DNA from: Alphaproteobacteria bacterium
GTDB lineage: Bacteria; Pseudomonadota; Alphaproteobacteria; UBA2966
Direction of reading: 5' to 3'
Length of the DNA stretch: 64,000 nt
Assembly: GCA_018650465.1 (NCBI GenBank)
Contig: JABIFY010000038.1
Location: 1 to 64,000, forward strand
Positions within the stretch are counted from its first letter, which is position 1; each line of letters starts with the position of its first letter. The position numbers were made by a program, and so were the translations under genes. Positions 6,631 through 15,895 of this stretch are shown here, in pieces. The notes below the pieces were generated by a model. It had not been told where the DNA came from, made no database searches, and saw only the letters and a program-made list of their open reading frames with translations.

Positions 6631-6797
6631 ATCTGAGCACCTGAATTGTGGGTTCGTAGAAGTCGTTACCCAATATATAGGAACTATGCTGCCAGTTAAC
6701 ACTCCGCAAAGGTCTTTGCATTAGTTTTTGCGAACGGCTCTCAAATCACATTTCATGTCGACCGGCTATCGCCGGACCGTTGCAAGGAAAATACCTA

Positions 6798-8186
6798 ATG
6801 CGAATATTGTTGGTGGTGTATGACAATGACAGCTATGTGCACTGGTTTCCGCAAGGCCTGGCCTATGTGGCCGCTGTTTTGCGCAATCAGGGCTATGACG
6901 TTGATGTCTACAGCCAGGATTTGCACCATTGGCCCGACGAGCATCTGACAAAATATCTTGATGAAAATGTCTATGACGTCATCGGCATCAGCGTTATTGC
7001 CGGTTATTACCAGTACAAAAAACTATTGTCGCTGTCTGAGGCCGTCAATCAGTCAAAAAAACGGCCGACTTATGTTATTGGCGGATACGGCCCGACACCG
7101 GACCCAGAATATTTCATGGAAAAGACCGGCGCCGATGTCGTCGTCATGGGAGAAGGCGAAGAAACCACCGTTGAATTGTTTGAAGCCTTTGAAAACAAAA
7201 AATCCCTGGCGAGCATCCTGGGCATTGCCTGGAAAGACGGCAACAAGGTCAATATCAATCCGCGGCGCGGTGTGATTGAAGATGTCGACAGCATTGCCTG
7301 GCCTGCCTATGACCTTTTCCCTATCGAAAACTATCGCATGATGCGGGAACCTGGTTGCGATAATTCCGATTTTCTGCTGCCGATGATGTCCGGGCGCGGT
7401 TGTACCTTCAAATGCACTTTCTGTTATCGCATGGATCCAGGCTTTCGGGCCCGCAATCCTGAGGCCATCATTGAAGAAATGCGATATCTGCAAGTCGACT
7501 TTGGCATCAGCTATATTGTCTTTTCGGATGACCTGCTGATGTGCTCGACGCCGCGAACGGTCGAAGTTTGCGAAGCCATCATCAAATCCGGGCTCAAGAT
7601 AAAATGGAATTGCTCTGGTCGTTTGAATTACGCCAAGCCGGATGTTTTGAATCTGATGAAAGAAGCTGGCTGTGTCTTCATCAACTACGGCATTGAATCG
7701 GTCGATAATGAAGTCCTCAAGAATATGAAAAAGGGGCTGAATTACGACCAGATAATAGATGGGGTCAGCACAACCCGCGATCTGGGCATCCATACCGGTC
7801 TGAATATCATCTTCGGCAATTTGGGCGATACACCTGATACCTTGCAAAAGAGCGTCGATTTCCTGAAGGAATATAATGACGGTGGTCAACAGCGCACCAT
7901 CCGGCCGGTCACCCCCTACCCCGGATCACCGTTGTTTTTTGAGGCCATAAATCGCGGTCTGTTAAAAGATTCGCGGGATTTCTACGAGGAAAAGCACCTA
8001 AATTCTGATTTATTGGCCGTGAATTTCACTGATATCCCGGATGATGACTTTCATGCCTTGTTGGCCGATGCCAATACCCAATTGGCTGAAAGTTATTTCG
8101 CAGACAAGCTTTCAGACACTAAATCAGTGATTCAGAACCTCTATTACGAGAAAGACATCACATTCCGGGGCTTTCGACAAACCTGA
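6798..8186 (+). CDS. B12-binding radical SAM protein
   Basis: The 462-residue enzyme starts with a cobalamin-binding Rossmann domain (about 1-140: MRILLVVYDND, QGLAYVAAVLRNQGYDV, VIGGYGPTPDPEYF). A radical SAM barrel follows, with the cluster ligands in GCTFKCTFCY (Cys202, Cys206, Cys209) and the conserved YGIES and GLNIIFGNLGDT segments. The C-terminal part has RPVTPYPGSPLF. The ATG at 6798 has AAGGAAA just upstream and is chosen over a TTG at 6780. Members include methyltransferases and cyclisation enzymes, so the substrate cannot be read from the sequence. It stands alone, which argues against a dedicated biosynthetic cluster. Confidence 0.88.
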   Translation: MRILLVVYDNDSYVHWFPQGLAYVAAVLRNQGYDVDVYSQDLHHWPDEHLTKYLDENVYDVIGISVIAGYYQYKKLLSLSEAVNQSKKRPTYVIGGYGPTPDPEYFMEKTGADVVVMGEGEETTVELFEAFENKKSLASILGIAWKDGNKVNINPRRGVIEDVDSIAWPAYDLFPIENYRMMREPGCDNSDFLLPMMSGRGCTFKCTFCYRMDPGFRARNPEAIIEEMRYLQVDFGISYIVFSDDLLMCSTPRTVEVCEAIIKSGLKIKWNCSGRLNYAKPDVLNLMKEAGCVFINYGIESVDNEVLKNMKKGLNYDQIIDGVSTTRDLGIHTGLNIIFGNLGDTPDTLQKSVDFLKEYNDGGQQRTIRPVTPYPGSPLFFEAINRGLLKDSRDFYEEKHLNSDLLAVNFTDIPDDDFHALLADANTQLAESYFADKLSDTKSVIQNLYYEKDITFRGFRQT

Positions 8187-8230: not shown

Positions 8231-8285
8231 ATTTTAGCAGCCATTCCATTGCGGCTGTTGAAACGCTCAGGCGAGGGAGACCGAC

Positions 8286-9098
8286 ATTTCAAACAGCGAT
8301 GAACAATTACCGACACGGGCGAACCCGCTGCGCGGCCAACATGCTTTTGTCACTGGTGCCTCTCGCGGTATTGGTGCATCGATTGCCACTGAACTGGCGA
8401 CCCTTGGCGCAAACCTTTCCATCACTGGCCGAGACGTCGATGCCCTGAACACCGTAAAGGCCAATATTGAAAACGGCTGCGACGTTGATGTTCAAACCTT
8501 CGTCTTTGATGTCACAGACGCTGAGGCAATCAGCCGGGTGATGACAGAAGCTTCTCAATCATTCGGCCCTGTGTCGATCCTGGTGAATAATGCCGGAGCG
8601 GCAACCAGTGCACCGTTCATGAAAACAGACATCAAACGCTGGCAATCGTTGCTGGATATCAACCTCACGGGCCCCTTCCTCCTGACCCAGGCTGTTTTAC
8701 CCGCCATGCTGGAAGCAAAGTCCGGTCGAGTGATCAATGTCGCCTCAACTGCCGGGATGATCGGCTACAGTTATGTGGCTCCTTATGTCGCTTCGAAACA
8801 TGGCGTGATCGGACTGACCCGCGCCCTGGCGACGGAATATGCCAGGTCCGGTGTCACTTTCAATTCTGTCTGCCCCGGCTTTACCGAAACAGACATCGCT
8901 GCTCGAACCATCGATACAATGGTCACCAAAGCTGGTCGGACCGAAGAAGAGGCTTATGCAGAGCTTGCCTCACTGAACCCACAAGGCCGACTGGTGCAAC
9001 CGGACGAAGTTGCCCAGGCTGTGGGTTGGCTGGCGCTTCCATCGTCATCATCAATTAACGGGCAATCGATTGCCGTCGCTGGCGGAGAGGTCATGTAA
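8286..9098 (+). CDS. SDR oxidoreductase with apparent ATT start
   Basis: The classical SDR reading frame is open from the stop at 8259 and shows the cofactor motif HAFVTGASRGIGA, then NNAGAATSAP and the catalytic Ser of NVASTAGMIG with YVASK. It ends with SINGQSIAVAGGEVM. The motif-bearing N-terminus has no ATG, GTG or TTG in frame. The best start is ATT at 8286, preceded by AGGGAG with 6 bases between, giving 270 residues, the usual family length. The internal ATG at 8538 would delete the cofactor site. It is the first gene of the catabolic operon and overlaps marR by one base. It probably oxidises a 3-hydroxyacyl-CoA or cyclic alcohol intermediate. Confidence 0.82.
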   Translation: MSNSDEQLPTRANPLRGQHAFVTGASRGIGASIATELATLGANLSITGRDVDALNTVKANIENGCDVDVQTFVFDVTDAEAISRVMTEASQSFGPVSILVNNAGAATSAPFMKTDIKRWQSLLDINLTGPFLLTQAVLPAMLEAKSGRVINVASTAGMIGYSYVAPYVASKHGVIGLTRALATEYARSGVTFNSVCPGFTETDIAARTIDTMVTKAGRTEEEAYAELASLNPQGRLVQPDEVAQAVGWLALPSSSSINGQSIAVAGGEVM

Positions 9099-9595
9099 TG
9101 TCCGAACAATTGACCGGCAATAACAAACTGGATTTTGAATCTTCCCTGCAAGCCGAGGACAAGCCCGAGCTGCGCGTCTGGCTGCGTTTGCTGACCTGTT
9201 CAACCATGATCGAACAACATGTGCGATCTGGCTTGCGTCAGAACTTTGAAACAACCCTGCCCCGCTTTGATATCATGGCTCAGCTCGACCGGGCCTCCGG
9301 CGACATGACCATGGGCCAGTTGTCCAGCCAGCTCATGGTCTCCAACGGCAACATAACTGGCCTCGTTGACCGACTGGTGCAGGAGGGTTTTGTCTCCCGC
9401 AAACCGGCACCCGGAGACCGGCGAACCCAGTTGGTTCGTCTGACAGCCCTCGGCAAAGACGCCTTTCAAAAAATGGTCCCCGAACATGAATCCTGGGTCG
9501 CGAACATGATGTCCGGACTGGACCGGGAAGAAATGAATGAATTGTTGCGCTTGCTTGGGCAACTGAAATCCTCCGTCAAATCTGCGACAGAATAA
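9098..9595 (+). CDS. MarR-family transcriptional regulator
   Basis: This 165-residue winged-helix repressor overlaps the SDR stop codon (TAATG), so the two are translationally coupled. The DNA-recognition part is MGQLSSQLMVSNGNITGLVDRLVQEGFVSRK, followed by the wing PAPGDRRTQLVRLTALG. Such regulators in aromatic-acid operons usually respond to the CoA thioester made by the linked ligase. The palindrome at 8211-8230 is the natural candidate operator. The regulator lies inside the operon it would control, which implies autoregulation. Confidence 0.92.
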   Translation: MSEQLTGNNKLDFESSLQAEDKPELRVWLRLLTCSTMIEQHVRSGLRQNFETTLPRFDIMAQLDRASGDMTMGQLSSQLMVSNGNITGLVDRLVQEGFVSRKPAPGDRRTQLVRLTALGKDAFQKMVPEHESWVANMMSGLDREEMNELLRLLGQLKSSVKSATE

Positions 9596-9613: not shown

Positions 9614-10774
9614 GTGCCTGATAAATCTTACCTCGACTGGCCCTTCCTCGAAGATCACCACCGCGATCTCGCCAACCTTCTCGACGCCTGGACCGAAAAA
9701 GAAATCAAGCCGTTTGAAGATGACGAAGACGACGTCAATGCCCTGAGCAAGAGGTTCGTCCGCATGCTGGGTGAAGCCGGGTTTCTCCAGTATGCCGTTC
9801 CCGCAGAATATGGTGGTGCGCACGAAAGTCTGGATGTCCGCTCGCTGTGCATCTGTCGTGAAACACTGGCTCGAACCACTGGTTTGGCCGATTTCGCCTT
9901 TGCCATGCAGGGTCTGGGATCAGGGGCAATTACAATGTTCGGATCTGCAGAACTGAAAGCGCAATATCTGCCTGGCGTTCTGAAGGGTGAGATAATTCCT
10001 GCCTTTGCGCTGACGGAACCAGGTGCCGGTTCTGACGCCGGCGCCCTGACGTCCTCGGCTGTGGAAGATGGCGATGACTATATTCTCAACGGCACCAAGA
10101 CATTCATTTCCAACGCAGGAATTGCCGATTTTTACTGCATGTTTGTGCGCACATCTGACGATGGTGCCCGCGGCCTGACGTGTTTTGTCCTCGATGCAGA
10201 TACGCCCGGGTTCGAGCTTGTCGAAAGTCTGGACGTCATAGCGCCTCATCCTCTTGGCACCATTTCCATGACCAACTGCCGCGTCCCCAAATCAAAGATG
10301 CTGGGCAAACTCGGAGAAGGCTTCAAGGTTGCCATGTCGAACCTGGACATTTTCCGCTCGACAGTCGGCGCCGCGTCACTTGGATTTGCCCGCCGCGCCC
10401 TGGACGAAGCTGTTGCCCGGACAAAAGACCGCCAGGTCTTTGGCCAGCCCCTCAGCAATTTCCAGTTCACGCAAGGCAAGCTCGCCGATATGGCAACTGA
10501 AATCGATGCCTCAGCCTTGTTGATCTATCGCGCAGCCTGGACACGTGATTGCGTCGCCGACCGCGTCACACGCGAAGCAGCCATGGCAAAAATGTATGCC
10601 ACAGAAGCAGCCCAGGTCGTCATCGATCATGCAGTACAATTGTTCGGTGGCATGGGTGTTCTGGTGGGCACGCCCGTTGAGCGCCTCTACCGGGAAATTC
10701 GCGCCATGCGAATTTATGAAGGCACAACAGACGTGCAAAAGATTGTTATTGCCACGCAACTAATGAAAGCATGA
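9614..10774 (+). CDS. Acyl-CoA dehydrogenase
   Basis: This 386-residue FAD enzyme introduces a double bond next to the CoA thioester. Family signatures are present: AFALTEPGAGSDAGAL in the middle domain, FISNAGIADFYCMFVRT, then RQVFGQPLSNFQ and QLFGGMGVLVGTPVERLYREIRAMRIYEGTTDVQ in the C-terminal helical domain. The Glu in YEGTTDVQ sits where the catalytic base lies in most members. The start is GTG. It lies between marR and the Old Yellow Enzyme gene in the same direction, so it probably acts on the CoA ester made by the ligase. The acyl group is not identifiable. Confidence 0.93.
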   Translation: MPDKSYLDWPFLEDHHRDLANLLDAWTEKEIKPFEDDEDDVNALSKRFVRMLGEAGFLQYAVPAEYGGAHESLDVRSLCICRETLARTTGLADFAFAMQGLGSGAITMFGSAELKAQYLPGVLKGEIIPAFALTEPGAGSDAGALTSSAVEDGDDYILNGTKTFISNAGIADFYCMFVRTSDDGARGLTCFVLDADTPGFELVESLDVIAPHPLGTISMTNCRVPKSKMLGKLGEGFKVAMSNLDIFRSTVGAASLGFARRALDEAVARTKDRQVFGQPLSNFQFTQGKLADMATEIDASALLIYRAAWTRDCVADRVTREAAMAKMYATEAAQVVIDHAVQLFGGMGVLVGTPVERLYREIRAMRIYEGTTDVQKIVIATQLMKA

Positions 10775-10813: not shown

Positions 10814-12265
10814 ATGAAACTTCTTGAGCCTCTCAAAATAAATCAAATCACCTTGCCCAACCGGGTGCTGGTTCCGGCCATGGTCACGCGCCTGTCGGGC
10901 GAAGACGGGTTTGTGAACGACGCCGTCATAGATCGTTATGCCGGTTTTGCCCGTGGTGGTGTTGGTTTGATTGTTGTTGAAGCTTGCGCCGTTCATTCCA
11001 GCAAGTCCGGACCCTTGTTGCGCCTGTCCGACGACAAATTTATTCCGGGGCATCGGAAACTGACAGACCGTGTGCACGGCATCAGTGATTCAAAGATCGT
11101 GCCGCAAATTATCCACTTCATGAAAGTCGCCCGTTCAGGCTGGCGTCAGACAGTGGACATGCTGGATACGGATCAGATCGAAGACATCATCTCTGATTTT
11201 GGCCGGGCTGCGATTCGCGCCCGTGAAGCCGGATATGACGGCGTCGAAATTCATTCAGCCCACGCCTATACCCTGATGTCCTTTTTGTCGCGCCACAATC
11301 ACCGCAAGGATGAATACAGCGGCAAAACCCTGGAAGGCCGCCTGCGCCTGTTTGGTCGCGTGATGGCAGAAATCCGCAAGTCCGTGGGCAATGATTTTGC
11401 CGTTGGAGTGCGTTTCCTTGCCGAAGAAGTTGTGCGGGATGGCTACACCATTGAAGACGCCAAACCCATTGCCCTGCGCATGGCGCAACTGGGTGTGGAT
11501 TACATTTCTCTGTCGGTTGGTGGCAAGTTCGAAGATGCTGTGCCACGTGAAGGCCAGCCGCTTTATCCCTACACGGGATATTCCGGCGACCGCTGCATGC
11601 CGGGGGATTGGTACCCTGCCATGCCCAATGCCCACCTGCCTGCCGCCATCAAGGAATATATCAACGGTCACGGCTTTGATGTGCCTGTTGTCTCTGTCGG
11701 CAAGATCAGTGATCCGCAGGATGCGGAAATGCTCTTGCAAACAGGCAAGGCCGATATCATCGGCATGGCCCGACAGTTGCTGGCAGATCCTGACTGGACC
11801 AACAAGGTCGCGGCTGGTCGCAGCGATGACATCGTCAAATGCATTTATTGCAATGTCTGCAAACAGCTTGATGGTGCCTTTAAGGAAGTAAACTGTTTCC
11901 TTTGGCCCAAGGGCATGAACCAGGCGCCGGCTGATGATCCCGATGGCATAAACCCGGTCTGGGGTGATGCAGCGGCAAGTTTGACAGGCGAAGTCGATGA
12001 ACGCGGTCGGGTGATCCTCAACTGGCAAGCACCTTCAAATGACGCCACCCGGATTTATGACATCTACCGCGCCGAAGAAGACGGCAAGGTCACCTGTATC
12101 GAAGCTGTCAAAAAACCACGTTATATCGATCCGCTCGCCCTGGGTGGTTTGAAATACACCTACCATGTGCGGGCTGTTGCCCCGGATGGTCGATCGACGC
12201 CGCCGTCCAATTCCGTCAGCCTGACACCTGATATTCCGTCATACGAAAAACTGGAGAATGCCTGA
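10814..12265 (+). CDS. Old Yellow Enzyme-type flavin oxidoreductase with Fe-S motif and C-terminal FN3-like domain
   Basis: Residues 1-370 form an FMN-binding NADH:flavin oxidoreductase barrel (LPNRVLVPAM, GVEIHSAHAYTLMSFLS, GMARQLLADPDW). Cys343, Cys346, Cys349 and Cys361 are spaced close to the 4Fe-4S site of 2,4-dienoyl-CoA reductase. Unlike that enzyme there is no NADPH/FAD Rossmann half. Residues 391-475 instead read as a fibronectin type III-like beta sandwich, with VILNWQAPSND, YDIYRAEEDG, the Tyr-rich strand GGLKYTYHVRAVAPDG and SNSVSLTP. This addition is unusual for a cytosolic enzyme. Neighbours are an acyl-CoA dehydrogenase and an aryl-CoA ligase, so reduction of an unsaturated ring-derived CoA ester is inferred. 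Confidence 0.88.
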   Translation: MKLLEPLKINQITLPNRVLVPAMVTRLSGEDGFVNDAVIDRYAGFARGGVGLIVVEACAVHSSKSGPLLRLSDDKFIPGHRKLTDRVHGISDSKIVPQIIHFMKVARSGWRQTVDMLDTDQIEDIISDFGRAAIRAREAGYDGVEIHSAHAYTLMSFLSRHNHRKDEYSGKTLEGRLRLFGRVMAEIRKSVGNDFAVGVRFLAEEVVRDGYTIEDAKPIALRMAQLGVDYISLSVGGKFEDAVPREGQPLYPYTGYSGDRCMPGDWYPAMPNAHLPAAIKEYINGHGFDVPVVSVGKISDPQDAEMLLQTGKADIIGMARQLLADPDWTNKVAAGRSDDIVKCIYCNVCKQLDGAFKEVNCFLWPKGMNQAPADDPDGINPVWGDAAASLTGEVDERGRVILNWQAPSNDATRIYDIYRAEEDGKVTCIEAVKKPRYIDPLALGGLKYTYHVRAVAPDGRSTPPSNSVSLTPDIPSYEKLENA

Positions 12266-12266
12266 A

Positions 12267-13940
12267 ATGTCCAATGTTGATCAGGGCCCCAAGGGGGTTT
12301 CCGCTCACGTCGATGATTTTGGCAAGATCAGTCTGCCGCCACAGGACCAGTGGCCGGACATGGACTGGCAAAGCGTGCCCGAACTGGCGGCCTATCCGGC
12401 ACAGATGAACTGCGCCGTTGAATTACTCGACAAGCAGGCGAAAAAATATGGAGATCGCCCGGTCATCCATTTTGAAGACACAACCTGGACTTACAATGAT
12501 CTGCTGGCCAAAGCTAATCAGATTGCCCATGTGCTGGTTGACGATCTTGGTATTGTCGCAGGTAATCGCGTCTTCATGCGGGCACCCAACAATCCCATGT
12601 ATGTGGCAATCTGGCTGGCGGTCATGAAAGTGGGGGCCATTGGTGTCGCCACCATGCCTTTGCTACGCGCCAAGGAACTTACCTACATCACTGAAAAGGC
12701 CGTGGTCAAAGTCGGATTCTGTTGCGACCATTTGAAGGATGAGATGGAAAAAACCATTGCTCAATCCACGACTTTTGAAAACGCGATCTATTTCAGTAAT
12801 CTCGGCCAAAAACCCGGCAATGGTAACCTTGACCAGTTGATGGCGAACAAGCCGACAACCTTCGATAATGTGGATACGGCCGCTGATGACGTTTGTCTGA
12901 TTGCCTTTACCTCAGGTACCACCGGCCCCGCAAAAGGCTGCATGCATTTTCATCGCGACATTCTGGCCATCTGCGACACCTTTTCGCGTTATGTGCTGAA
13001 GCCCACGCCGGAAGATATCTTCTGCGGCTCTCCCCCCGTCGCCTTTACCTTTGGCCTTGGGGCATTGGTGACCTTCGCCATGCATGCCGGGTCGTCAACC
13101 GCTCTGTGTGAAGGCCCTGCACCTGAAGCCCTGATGGGAATTATCGAGAAGCACAAGGCAACGATCTGCTTCACAGCACCAACAGCTTTCCGCGTCATGA
13201 CAGACCTCGTTGATAAATACGATATCAGCTCCCTGACAAAATCCGTTTCCGCGGGTGAAACCCTGCCCTTGCCGACTTATCAGGGTTGGCAGAATGCGAC
13301 CGGGATCAAAACAATCGACGGCCTTGGTTCAACTGAAATGCTGCACATCTTTATCTCTGCTGCACATGACGACATCGTGCCAGGAGCCACTGGTCTGCCC
13401 ATCCCCGGTTTTCAGGGCAAGATTATCGACGACAACGGCAAAGATGTGCCCGACGGTGAAGTCGGTCGTTTGGCTGTAAAGGGCCCTACTGGTTGTCGTT
13501 ATCTCGACAACGCCGAACGCCAGGCCGCCTATGTGCAGGATGGCTGGAACGTTACCGGCGACAGTTATATGCGGGATGAAAATGGCATTTTCTGGTTCCA
13601 GGCCCGTAACGACGATATGATCATTTCGGCTGGCTATAATATTTCAGGCCCAGAGGTCGAGGCCTGTTTGCTGGAACATGCCAAGGTCGCGGAATGCGGT
13701 GTTGTTGCAGCCCCTCACCCCGAGCGTGGTCACATCGTTAAAGCCTATGTCATGTTACGCGAACCTTCAGAAGCTGGCCCGGCTCTGGCAAAAACCTTGC
13801 AAGATTATGTGAAGGCCCAGATCGCACCCTACAAATACCCCCGCGCTATCGAATTCATGACCGACATGCCCCGCACAGAAACCGGCAAGCTGCAACGCTT
13901 CAGGTTACGAGAGATGGCAGAGGCAGAATCGAAAGCCTGA
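12267..13940 (+). CDS. Aryl-CoA ligase, 2-aminobenzoate/benzoate-CoA ligase type
   Basis: The 557-residue ATP-dependent ligase activates an acid as its adenylate and then forms the CoA thioester. The adenylate loop is AFTSGTTGPAKGCMHFHRD. The hinge region has GWNVTGD and the C-terminal Lys lies in TETGKLQRFRLRE. The stretches NCAVELLDKQ, RVFMRAPNNPMYVAIWLAVMKVG and MPLLRAKELTYI resemble 2-aminobenzoate-CoA ligases more than fatty acid ligases. The ATG at 12267 is preferred over 12258, which nearly touches the GGAG signal. The gene overlaps or abuts the Old Yellow Enzyme stop and ends the operon. The exact aromatic acid is an inference. Confidence 0.88.
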   Translation: MSNVDQGPKGVSAHVDDFGKISLPPQDQWPDMDWQSVPELAAYPAQMNCAVELLDKQAKKYGDRPVIHFEDTTWTYNDLLAKANQIAHVLVDDLGIVAGNRVFMRAPNNPMYVAIWLAVMKVGAIGVATMPLLRAKELTYITEKAVVKVGFCCDHLKDEMEKTIAQSTTFENAIYFSNLGQKPGNGNLDQLMANKPTTFDNVDTAADDVCLIAFTSGTTGPAKGCMHFHRDILAICDTFSRYVLKPTPEDIFCGSPPVAFTFGLGALVTFAMHAGSSTALCEGPAPEALMGIIEKHKATICFTAPTAFRVMTDLVDKYDISSLTKSVSAGETLPLPTYQGWQNATGIKTIDGLGSTEMLHIFISAAHDDIVPGATGLPIPGFQGKIIDDNGKDVPDGEVGRLAVKGPTGCRYLDNAERQAAYVQDGWNVTGDSYMRDENGIFWFQARNDDMIISAGYNISGPEVEACLLEHAKVAECGVVAAPHPERGHIVKAYVMLREPSEAGPALAKTLQDYVKAQIAPYKYPRAIEFMTDMPRTETGKLQRFRLREMAEAESKA

Positions 13941-14077: not shown

Positions 14078-15895
14078 ATGAGACATGCGACAACAGGCTT
14101 GCTCTCCATTCTTCTTATTTTTTTTAATGTTGTTTCAACAAATGCTGCCGATGCCGAACAGAAAGAATTAGTGCCTGTTCGCGTGCAACTGAAATGGTAT
14201 CACCAATATCAATTTGCGGGACTCTACGCCGCTATTGAACAGGGTTACTTTCGAGAGGCTGGACTTGATGTGAGCCTCATTGAGGGCGGCCCAACCATTG
14301 ATCCCGTTCACGCCGTAATCAAGGGTGGGGCAGAATTCGGGATCGGGAATTCATCTCTATTAATTGACTACAGTAACGGCACCCCTGTCGTGGCGATCAG
14401 CGCAATTTACCAGCATTCGCCATTTGCCATTATTGCGCGACGGGATGGCGATATTAAAACTGTCCATGATCTTGAGGGCAAGGTTCTCATGAGTGAGACC
14501 CACGCTGCGGAATTGTCGGCATACCTTAAATTATCCGGGGTGCGACTGGACAAGGTCAAAATTGTTCCGCACACCGGCTCTATAATCAATATTGGAAAAA
14601 ATGACCCCAGTGGCATTGATGCCGCAACGGCATACTTGTCAGTTGAAAATTATGAAGCTTCAAAACTGAAAATTCCCTATATAATTTTCAACCCGCGTGA
14701 TCTGAAGATCAATTTTTATGGTGACACATTGTTCACCTCAAAGGATTACGCGACGAAGCAAAATCAGATTGTCATCTCCATGAGAGATGCTTTGCGTCGT
14801 GGGTGGGAATATGCTCGCCTGCACCACGATGAAGTGATTGATCTCATTCTTCAAAAATACAGTCCCCGCTCAGATCGTTTGGCCTTGAGCTTTGAAGCAC
14901 AATCCACAAACACCCTGCTTGGTGAAGATATCATCGATATTGGTTATATGAGTAAATCCCGTTGGCAACACATTGGCGACACTTTTGCCAAGGCGGGAAT
15001 GTTGAAACCAGATTTCACACTGGACGGATTTATGTTCGATGCCGAAGAGAACATCCCTCTTTGGCTCTACCAGTGGCTCGCCGGGTTCCTGCTTTTGCTC
15101 ACTGTTTCGGTGTTTGTTGCCCAGCGTTATTATCGGATGAGCAACAGGTTGAAGCAGGAAGTGGTTTTCGGAGAGTCGCTCCAACGAAAGCTTGAAGCAG
15201 AAGTTGAGACTAAAAACAGGATTTTTTCCATCATCGCCCATGATCTGAGAAGTCCGTTTCAGGCAATATTCTGGAGTACCGAGTTAATTTCAAAACATCC
15301 GGAAAAATTCTCCAAAGAAGAAATGGTCGAGTTTGCAGGCGATGCCAACAAAGCAGGAAAGCAAGTGTTCTCTCTCCTTGAAAATCTGCTGGAGTGGGCA
15401 CGTTTGCATGCTGACAAAGGCGGTCCCGAACCGGAAAGGTTCGCGGTCAGAAACGTATCAGAAGAATGCAGGAGCCTTCTGACATCTGTTGCAGAAGCGA
15501 AGGACATACAGATCAAAAACAACGTCGAGGAATTTGATGCATTCGCGGATAAACGTGCCGTCATGACGGTGATCCGCAATCTGTTGGCAAACAGTATCAA
15601 GTTCACGCCGCACAATGGTTCAATAGAGATGTCTACGACCAAACGTGGTCATGATATTCAGTTTACGATCCGTGACACCGGTGTGGGAATGTCGGAAGAG
15701 CAGATCAATGTGGTATTTGAATTTGGCCAAAACACCTCAACACAGGGAACCTCCGGTGAAATGGGGACGGGCTTGGGTCTTCCTCTTTGCAAGGAGCTGA
15801 TTGAGAATAATGGCGGTCAGTTCTGGATTGAAAGCACACCCGGCGAGGGCTCCCGGTTTCACTTCACCTTACCCGTTGGAGCCGGAAAAGCCTGA
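14078..15895 (+). CDS. Hybrid THI5/NMT1 periplasmic-binding domain and sensor histidine kinase
   Basis: The 605-residue protein starts with a signal peptide (about 1-23). Residues 33-300 form an NMT1/THI5-like binding domain (VQLKWYHQYQFAGLYAAIEQGYFREAGLDV), the fold that binds pyrimidines and thiamine precursors. One membrane segment follows at about 328-349. The cytoplasmic kinase has the phospho-acceptor in FSIIAHDLRSPFQ (His388), the N box NLLANSIKF, DTGVGM and GTGLGLPLCKELIENNGG. It therefore looks like a receptor that senses a pyrimidine-like or other small ligand directly. No response regulator lies next to it. GAGGTGA precedes the ATG. Confidence 0.88.
   Translation: MRHATTGLLSILLIFFNVVSTNAADAEQKELVPVRVQLKWYHQYQFAGLYAAIEQGYFREAGLDVSLIEGGPTIDPVHAVIKGGAEFGIGNSSLLIDYSNGTPVVAISAIYQHSPFAIIARRDGDIKTVHDLEGKVLMSETHAAELSAYLKLSGVRLDKVKIVPHTGSIINIGKNDPSGIDAATAYLSVENYEASKLKIPYIIFNPRDLKINFYGDTLFTSKDYATKQNQIVISMRDALRRGWEYARLHHDEVIDLILQKYSPRSDRLALSFEAQSTNTLLGEDIIDIGYMSKSRWQHIGDTFAKAGMLKPDFTLDGFMFDAEENIPLWLYQWLAGFLLLLTVSVFVAQRYYRMSNRLKQEVVFGESLQRKLEAEVETKNRIFSIIAHDLRSPFQAIFWSTELISKHPEKFSKEEMVEFAGDANKAGKQVFSLLENLLEWARLHADKGGPEPERFAVRNVSEECRSLLTSVAEAKDIQIKNNVEEFDAFADKRAVMTVIRNLLANSIKFTPHNGSIEMSTTKRGHDIQFTIRDTGVGMSEEQINVVFEFGQNTSTQGTSGEMGTGLGLPLCKELIENNGGQFWIESTPGEGSRFHFTLPVGAGKA

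Follow-up and report, generated by a model that had tools for sequence, protein, structure and literature searches.

The gene under study lies in a 64,000-nt stretch of an alphaproteobacterial contig (the window) and raises two questions: what stands in place of the cofactor domain behind the flavin barrel of an iron-sulfur Old Yellow Enzyme (OYE), and which pathway the resulting protein, here called OYE-FN3, would serve. The coordinates of the features discussed are collected in Table 1.

Table 1. Features of the OYE-FN3 gene and of its operon, in window positions.
Feature	Positions	Strand	Basis or remark
SDR	8262..9098	+	adh_short; start codon unclear
MarR-type regulator	9098..9595	+	family match
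Acyl-CoA dehydrogenase (ACAD)	9614..10774	+	39 nt upstream of OYE
OYE-FN3 gene	10814..12265	+	483 aa; ATG start; no internal stop
FMN barrel, Oxidored_FMN, residues 1-338	10814..11827	+	Pfam PF00724 E 1.6e-51; predicted barrel; fold match 6qkr
OYE active-site set His147, His150, Tyr152 (HxAHAY)	11252..11269	+	HxAHAYT in 80/80 homologues
Fe-S site Cys343, 346, 349, 361	11840..11896	+	C-x2-C-x2-C-x11-C in 80/80; 1ps9 alignment through region
FN3 domain, residues 390-472	11981..12229	+	predicted structure, tail profile vs PDB, Pfam fn3, Foldseek
Aryl-CoA ligase	12258..13940	+	AMP-binding; overlaps OYE stop by 8 nt

The sequence-only reading of this stretch had described an OYE flavin barrel and an Fe-S Cys set, followed by a fibronectin III (FN3)-like tail in place of the NADPH/FAD half, beside an aryl-CoA ligase, and each of these parts is confirmed by our analysis. 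The Oxidored_FMN match covers residues 2-338 (176 bits against a Pfam cut-off of 27), and the active-site residues within it presumably have the roles of their counterparts in YqjM and OYE1. Behind the barrel, the four cysteines lie exactly where they had been placed, and the four-Cys linker that marks the three-domain Fe-S OYEs is present as a sequence motif in all 80 homologues; on this basis OYE-FN3 carries a four-Cys Fe-S site behind its barrel, and we infer that it binds FMN and a cluster. The chain ends 122 residues past the fourth Cys, all of them FN3 domain and linker, i.e., the FAD/NADPH half is absent, as are the C-terminal FAD or ADP domain and the second alpha/beta domain of the DCR, NCR and TMADH type. 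The two FadH-like paralogues with the Cys set in the same genome have 319-320 residues after the fourth Cys.

We took the best 80 of 172 relatives in GTDB genomes (57-94% identity), which come mainly from Alphaproteobacteria and in some cases from Betaproteobacteria. All 78 homologues that are not cut by a contig end (L071 and L079 are so cut) carry the tail, with 111-163 residues after the fourth Cys, and a frameshift or chimera is ruled out, since the tail is in frame and shared by all of them. This was also the outcome of a check set beforehand, which looked for a missing tail together with signs of a frameshift and found the tail in every complete close homologue examined. The four Cys, the HxAHAYT motif and the GWRQ motif are each intact in 80 of 80, and every one of them has PQxxH and HxAHAYT 45 residues apart. 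Mean column identity over the 80 homologues is 0.79 in the barrel, 0.79 in the Fe-S linker and 0.60 in the FN3 domain. Four tail residues (L402, W404, Y450 and G459) are invariant in an alignment of 71 sequences, made up of the window protein and 70 of the 80 loci after omission of two near-duplicates, four loci truncated at a contig end and four that contain N. A tailed OYE is present in 15 of 289 genomes drawn from the class, and a search of plasmids gave no close homologue (best match 36% identity over 78% of the query).

Several lines of evidence bear on the fold of the tail. An AlphaFold2 model of OYE-FN3 made from the 71 sequences has a mean pLDDT of 85.8 and a pTM of 0.87, and was used instead of a run from six sequences that gave a pLDDT of 53. 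The tail is modelled with seven strands (residues 391-394, 400-403, 414-420, 426-432, 436-439, 448-455 and 468-470), with block pLDDT values of about 79-94 across residues 391-470 of the predicted structure. Pfam fn3 matches the window protein below threshold at residues 396-469, and the window tail alone at E 0.0059 to 0.0073, where its 16.9-17.2 bits do not reach the gathering cut-off of 25; in full-length homologues the family is matched by 26 of 71 at E <= 1 (best 2e-7), and in isolated tails by 23 of 38 at E <= 0.01. A profile of 38 tails (37 of the 74 usable tails and that of the window) matched 42 PDB sequences at E <= 1, nearly all of them FN3-bearing by name, with a few, e.g., 8pn5 and 3b4n, left unchecked; the matches include titin (1.7e-10), the Fn3-like protein 3mpc (9.8e-8) and chitinase A1, 1k85 (2.7e-6). 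When the model was compared with viral proteins using Foldseek, FN3 proteins came out on top (E 4e-6), and no FN3 chain is among the VIA matches listed for the model.

The structure prediction set beforehand as a check thus returned a seven-strand Ig-like sandwich with profile likeness to solved FN3 domains, and the reading of the tail of about 85 residues as an FN3-like sandwich is borne out by the model, the PDB profile matches and Foldseek; we conclude that the tail is, as modelled, an FN3 domain. A remnant of the FAD domain is ruled out as its origin, because the tail is all-beta with FN3 matches. No second copy of the tail was found in the genome of the window by a search with the tail profile.

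Comparison with known systems shows what OYE-FN3 shares and what it lacks. With FadH (1ps9), 2-naphthoyl-CoA reductase (NCR, 6qkr) and trimethylamine dehydrogenase (TMADH, 2tmd) it has in common an FMN barrel with a four-Cys Fe-S linker behind it, and these enzymes are among its closest VIA fold matches: 6qkr is the best (Z 45.7, rmsd 2.0, 355 residues aligned), followed by TMADH (Z 43.1), 2,4-dienoyl-CoA reductase (DCR, 1ps9; Z 42.8), 6-HPON amine oxidase (Z 42.2) and histamine dehydrogenase (Z 41.9). The best sequence match is to 1ps9, the E. coli FadH, over residues 3-370 and thus through the barrel and Cys region, with the lid of OYE-FN3 12 residues shorter at a gap after the PQIIH strand. 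Unlike the three-domain Fe-S OYEs, OYE-FN3 has an FN3 domain of about 85 residues and no FAD/ADP or NAD(P)H domain, whereas in all of the Fe-S OYEs of known structure compared the cluster is followed by a domain for a cofactor or nucleotide. The single-domain ene-reductases of the YqjM/OYE1 type resemble it in barrel and His-His-Tyr set, but have neither the Fe-S site nor an FN3 domain. In Fe-S relatives the cluster serves as the wire between FMN and FAD, or hands electrons straight to ETF, as it does in TMADH and histamine dehydrogenase (PMC6502838). A full-text search of open-licence papers gave no description of an OYE with an FN3 domain, which is weak evidence of absence, and nothing on this protein in those on iron-sulfur OYEs, OYE domain architecture or salicylyl-CoA clusters; the parts are known, and the pairing may be newly described here, as far as that literature goes.

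The operon around OYE-FN3 points to its pathway. Its gene order in the window is SDR (a short-chain dehydrogenase), MarR, ACAD, OYE and a benzoate-CoA-ligase-like protein, which is the aryl-CoA ligase already named as a neighbour. The best NCBIfam match of this ligase is TIGR02262, the benzoate-CoA ligase family, at 346 bits and thus below the cut-off of 375, so the family match does not fix its aryl substrate. Among the 47 loci in which each flank is longer than 4 kb, matches to reference genes within 5.5 kb of the OYE identify the ligase in 31, SDR in 30, MarR in 22, ACAD in 20, ECH (enoyl-CoA hydratase) in 19, an LIV-type binding protein in 12 and 2-aminobenzoyl-CoA monooxygenase/reductase (ACMR) in four. 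The ECH near OYE loci matches PRK08258 (498.7 bits against a cut-off of 330); for the ACMR-like protein the match is to PRK08255, the bifunctional salicylyl-CoA 5-hydroxylase/oxidoreductase (1144.8 bits, cut-off 1078). In the genome of the window, both are encoded off the window contig, ECH (PRK08258, 457.7 bits) on contig C68 and ACMR (PRK08255, 1089.4 bits) on contig C53, so that the abm-type gene set, i.e., ligase, ACAD, SDR and MarR in a cluster with ECH and ACMR in the genome, is present there.

The flanks gave some further observations. The SDR frame has a full Rossmann start (RGQHAFVTGASRGIG), and no in-frame ATG, GTG or TTG occurs between the stop at 8259-8261 and position 8538; in the SDR of a genome of the same genus (L017) the first listed start is likewise internal, and translation may begin at a rare codon such as ATT. 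Upstream of the operon, 6780-8186 (+) encodes a B12-binding radical SAM protein that scores above no NCBIfam equivalog cut-off and has close matches (92%) only in two records of that same-genus genome. Right after the ligase, 14078-15895 (+) encodes, from its translation read by eye, a histidine kinase joined to a periplasmic-binding (NMT1-like) sensor, with no match in the other OYE loci.

The same operon occurs without the OYE. We compared 40 ACMR regions, of which 20 are from genomes with neither OYE clade, 13 from genomes with a tailed OYE and seven from genomes with the sister clade described below. At least four of SDR, MarR, ECH, ACAD and ligase lie beside ACMR in 14 of the 20 OYE-negative regions, with an ECH of 60-77% identity to the reference. 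Among the 13 tailed-OYE regions, operon, OYE and ACMR are together in three (L152, L180 and L181), in the order SDR-MarR-ECH-ACAD-OYE-ligase-ACMR in L180 and L181, and ACMR is separate in the other 10. The operon around OYE-FN3 is therefore of the type that elsewhere accompanies ACMR (PRK08255), with the same partners, and OYE-FN3 appears to have been inserted into an aryl-CoA operon of a known type. ACMR also has an OYE half; this half is fused to an FAD hydroxylase, lacks FN3 and, in the ACMR of the same genome, the Cys set, and it is not a close relative of OYE-FN3 in the tree.

Whole genomes gave the same association. The 289 genomes were sorted into tailed and sister clades by range and score of the profile match, with G058 counted as tailed (a contig end truncates its OYE after residue 372, and another contig has a 51% match to the tail). 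Of the 15 genomes with the tailed OYE, 14 have ACMR, as do 38 of 274 others (Fisher p 1e-10, uncorrected for phylogeny); it is also present in 12 of 12 sister-clade genomes, and in 44 of the 50 genomes that carry 50 of the 80 loci, a sample that overlaps the draw of 289. In the family of the window, the four genomes with OYE-FN3 (G000, G001, G003 and G005) all have a full ACMR, and the three without it (G002, G004 and G006) have none. BoxB, the marker of another aerobic aryl-CoA pathway that we used as a control, occurs in 11 of 15 tailed genomes, 8 of 12 sister genomes and 53 of 289 overall, and because it co-occurs in part, lifestyle explains part of the association between OYE and ACMR. Within BoxB-positive genomes, ACMR is found in 18 of 19 with either OYE clade against 10 of 34 without, and within BoxB-negative genomes in 8 of 8 against 16 of 228, both uncorrected for phylogeny. 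These associations make a place for OYE-FN3 in an ACMR-type aryl-CoA pathway well supported at the level of gene content.

The sister clade (L008 and L097-L103) joins the tailed OYEs in the tree with a joint node support of 100/98, where the tree program warns of long branches. Eight of its proteins were examined, from 8 of the 12 genomes, with those of the other four judged tailless by profile-match range only. In all eight, the protein ends soon after the last Cys with no FN3, and the linker reads CEYTNYC, i.e., the second Fe-S Cys is Thr; the barrel segment is about 65 residues longer (403-405 vs 338), with a long lid insertion after a PQIIH-like strand. The long lid insertion, the three of four Cys and the missing tail mark it as a family of its own, found in ACMR genomes. 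Since the sister proteins lack both the tail and the full Cys set, these two go together in the proteins examined; as one evolutionary contrast, not repeated, this pairing is only suggestive. It also offers a natural contrast between tail with four Cys and no tail with three Cys.

We tentatively propose, as a possibility that falls short of probable, that OYE-FN3 is an extra FMN/[4Fe-4S] redox enzyme that takes a dearomatised CoA thioester as its substrate within a pathway of the ACMR type, coupled to a carrier through its cluster, with FN3 at the docking face. The protein would be cytosolic, in a hybrid aerobic pathway of the 2-aminobenzoyl-CoA/salicylyl-CoA type, in which the ligase would make the aryl-CoA, ACMR would hydroxylate and dearomatise it, OYE-FN3 would reduce (or dehydrogenate) a C=C of the ring that is in conjugation with a carbonyl or thioester, and ACAD, ECH and SDR would open and process the ring. 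If its residues play the same parts as in YqjM and OYE1, the His-His-Tyr set speaks for hydride transfer, in either direction, with an enone-like or enoyl-thioester substrate; FMN and the substrate would exchange the hydride, His147/His150 would hold the substrate and Tyr152 would donate the proton. Because the FAD domain is absent and the cluster conserved, the cluster would most simply serve an external one-electron carrier, and single electrons would travel in either direction between the [4Fe-4S] cluster and this soluble carrier; ETF is favoured because ACAD is encoded next door, and ferredoxin is possible, with KorAB genes near the OYE in four loci named below. The FN3 domain would shield the cluster, form part of the docking face and cover the face held by the FAD domain in relatives; the VIA alignments with the three-domain enzymes extend to model residue 463, and their ranges do not tell whether FN3 overlies that domain. 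Substrate, direction, electron carrier and FN3 role are all what we infer.

The sequence-only reading had suggested that the tail docks either an electron-transfer partner or a substrate-bearing protein. The first is plausible, and the joint lack of the tail and one Fe-S Cys in the sister clade counts in its favour; the second found no support, the substrate carrier in the operon being CoA. A wider claim is that a class of OYE has been rewired for one-electron partners: an FN3 domain would have taken the place of the FAD/NAD(P)H half and would dock ETF or ferredoxin above the [4Fe-4S] cluster, giving a carrier-coupled redox step on the dearomatised ring in an aerobic aryl-CoA pathway, with docking domain and full Cys set missing together from the sister clade. 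This claim seems to us doubtful. Against the role proposed for OYE-FN3, ACMR keeps its own OYE half (HxxHGY in all 46 ACMRs listed, with no lost active site seen), which leaves no obvious need for a second reductase, and the sister OYE fills the same slot without FN3 in L097 and L098, where ACAD and ligase of that operon flank it and ACMR follows, so FN3 would be dispensable if the step is the same. In addition, many ACMR operons are without any such OYE, ACMR is missing in 1 of the 15 tailed genomes of the class sample and 6 of the 50 genomes of the locus sample, and no ETF or ferredoxin gene is among the operon genes as annotated, i.e., without a family-level search. If the tail is an electron-carrier dock, it would be a new way to wire an OYE, with relevance to ene-reductase engineering. 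Part of a review (PMC4539516) assigns the steps after 2-aminobenzoyl-CoA monooxygenase/reductase to beta-oxidation enzymes in general terms, and OYE-FN3 is a candidate gene for these steps.

The main rival is a plain NAD(P)H ene-reductase, in which FMN would be reduced directly in the barrel, the cluster would be a structural remnant and FN3 would stabilise or oligomerise the protein. Retention of the classical His-His-Tyr set in all 80 homologues fits it, as do the maintenance of a sister clade that is one Cys short and the lower conservation of FN3 relative to barrel and Fe-S linker; four Cys invariant in 80 of 80 are more than a remnant would need, and we regard this reading as rather unlikely. 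The tight gene order with ACAD and ligase could instead mean that FN3 docks a pathway enzyme (ligase, ACAD or ACMR) and channels CoA intermediates with no electron role, and there are conserved tail residues that might serve such a contact, e.g., K433 in an EAVK stretch; however, the conserved residues are few, several are in the FN3 core, and the sister clade fills this slot with no FN3, which makes this improbable.

Oxidative deamination of an amino-CoA intermediate by an amine dehydrogenase of the TMADH/histamine dehydrogenase kind, with electrons passing through the cluster to ETF, we consider hardly probable. The C-x2-C-x2-C spacing, which we take to be like that of TMADH, the adjacent ACAD gene and the presence of TMADH, 6-HPON amine oxidase and histamine dehydrogenase among the closest folds speak for it, but the active site reads HxAHAY as in ene-reductases, TMADH has a Tyr in place of the first His of this set, and RidA-type proteins near many of these operons provide another deamination route. 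A low-potential, ferredoxin-driven, NCR-like dearomatising aryl-CoA reductase fed by a 2-oxoacid:ferredoxin oxidoreductase is very improbable, even though NCR is the top fold ahead of TMADH and DCR and KorA/KorB genes adjoin the OYE in L046, L066, L076 and L081, since Z gaps of 2-3 within one fold are small, KorAB is near in few of the 80 loci and mostly in one lineage, the NCR mechanism, as given in part of PMC6502838, needs the FAD that OYE-FN3 lacks, and most of these genomes have the oxygen-dependent ACMR.

Two features of the neighbourhood vary among the loci. The KorA/KorB 2-oxoacid:acceptor oxidoreductase genes of the four loci just named recur about 8-10 kb from OYE-FN3 in L054 and L065, and a RidA-like gene lies between KorAB and OYE-FN3 in L046, L066 and L081. 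In addition, a (2,3-dihydroxybenzoyl)adenylate-synthase-like ligase is encoded near OYE-FN3 in L076, L077, L078, L082, L087, L088, L091, L093, L095 and L096, and its presence in a more distant subgroup (57-61% identity) hints at another aryl acid.
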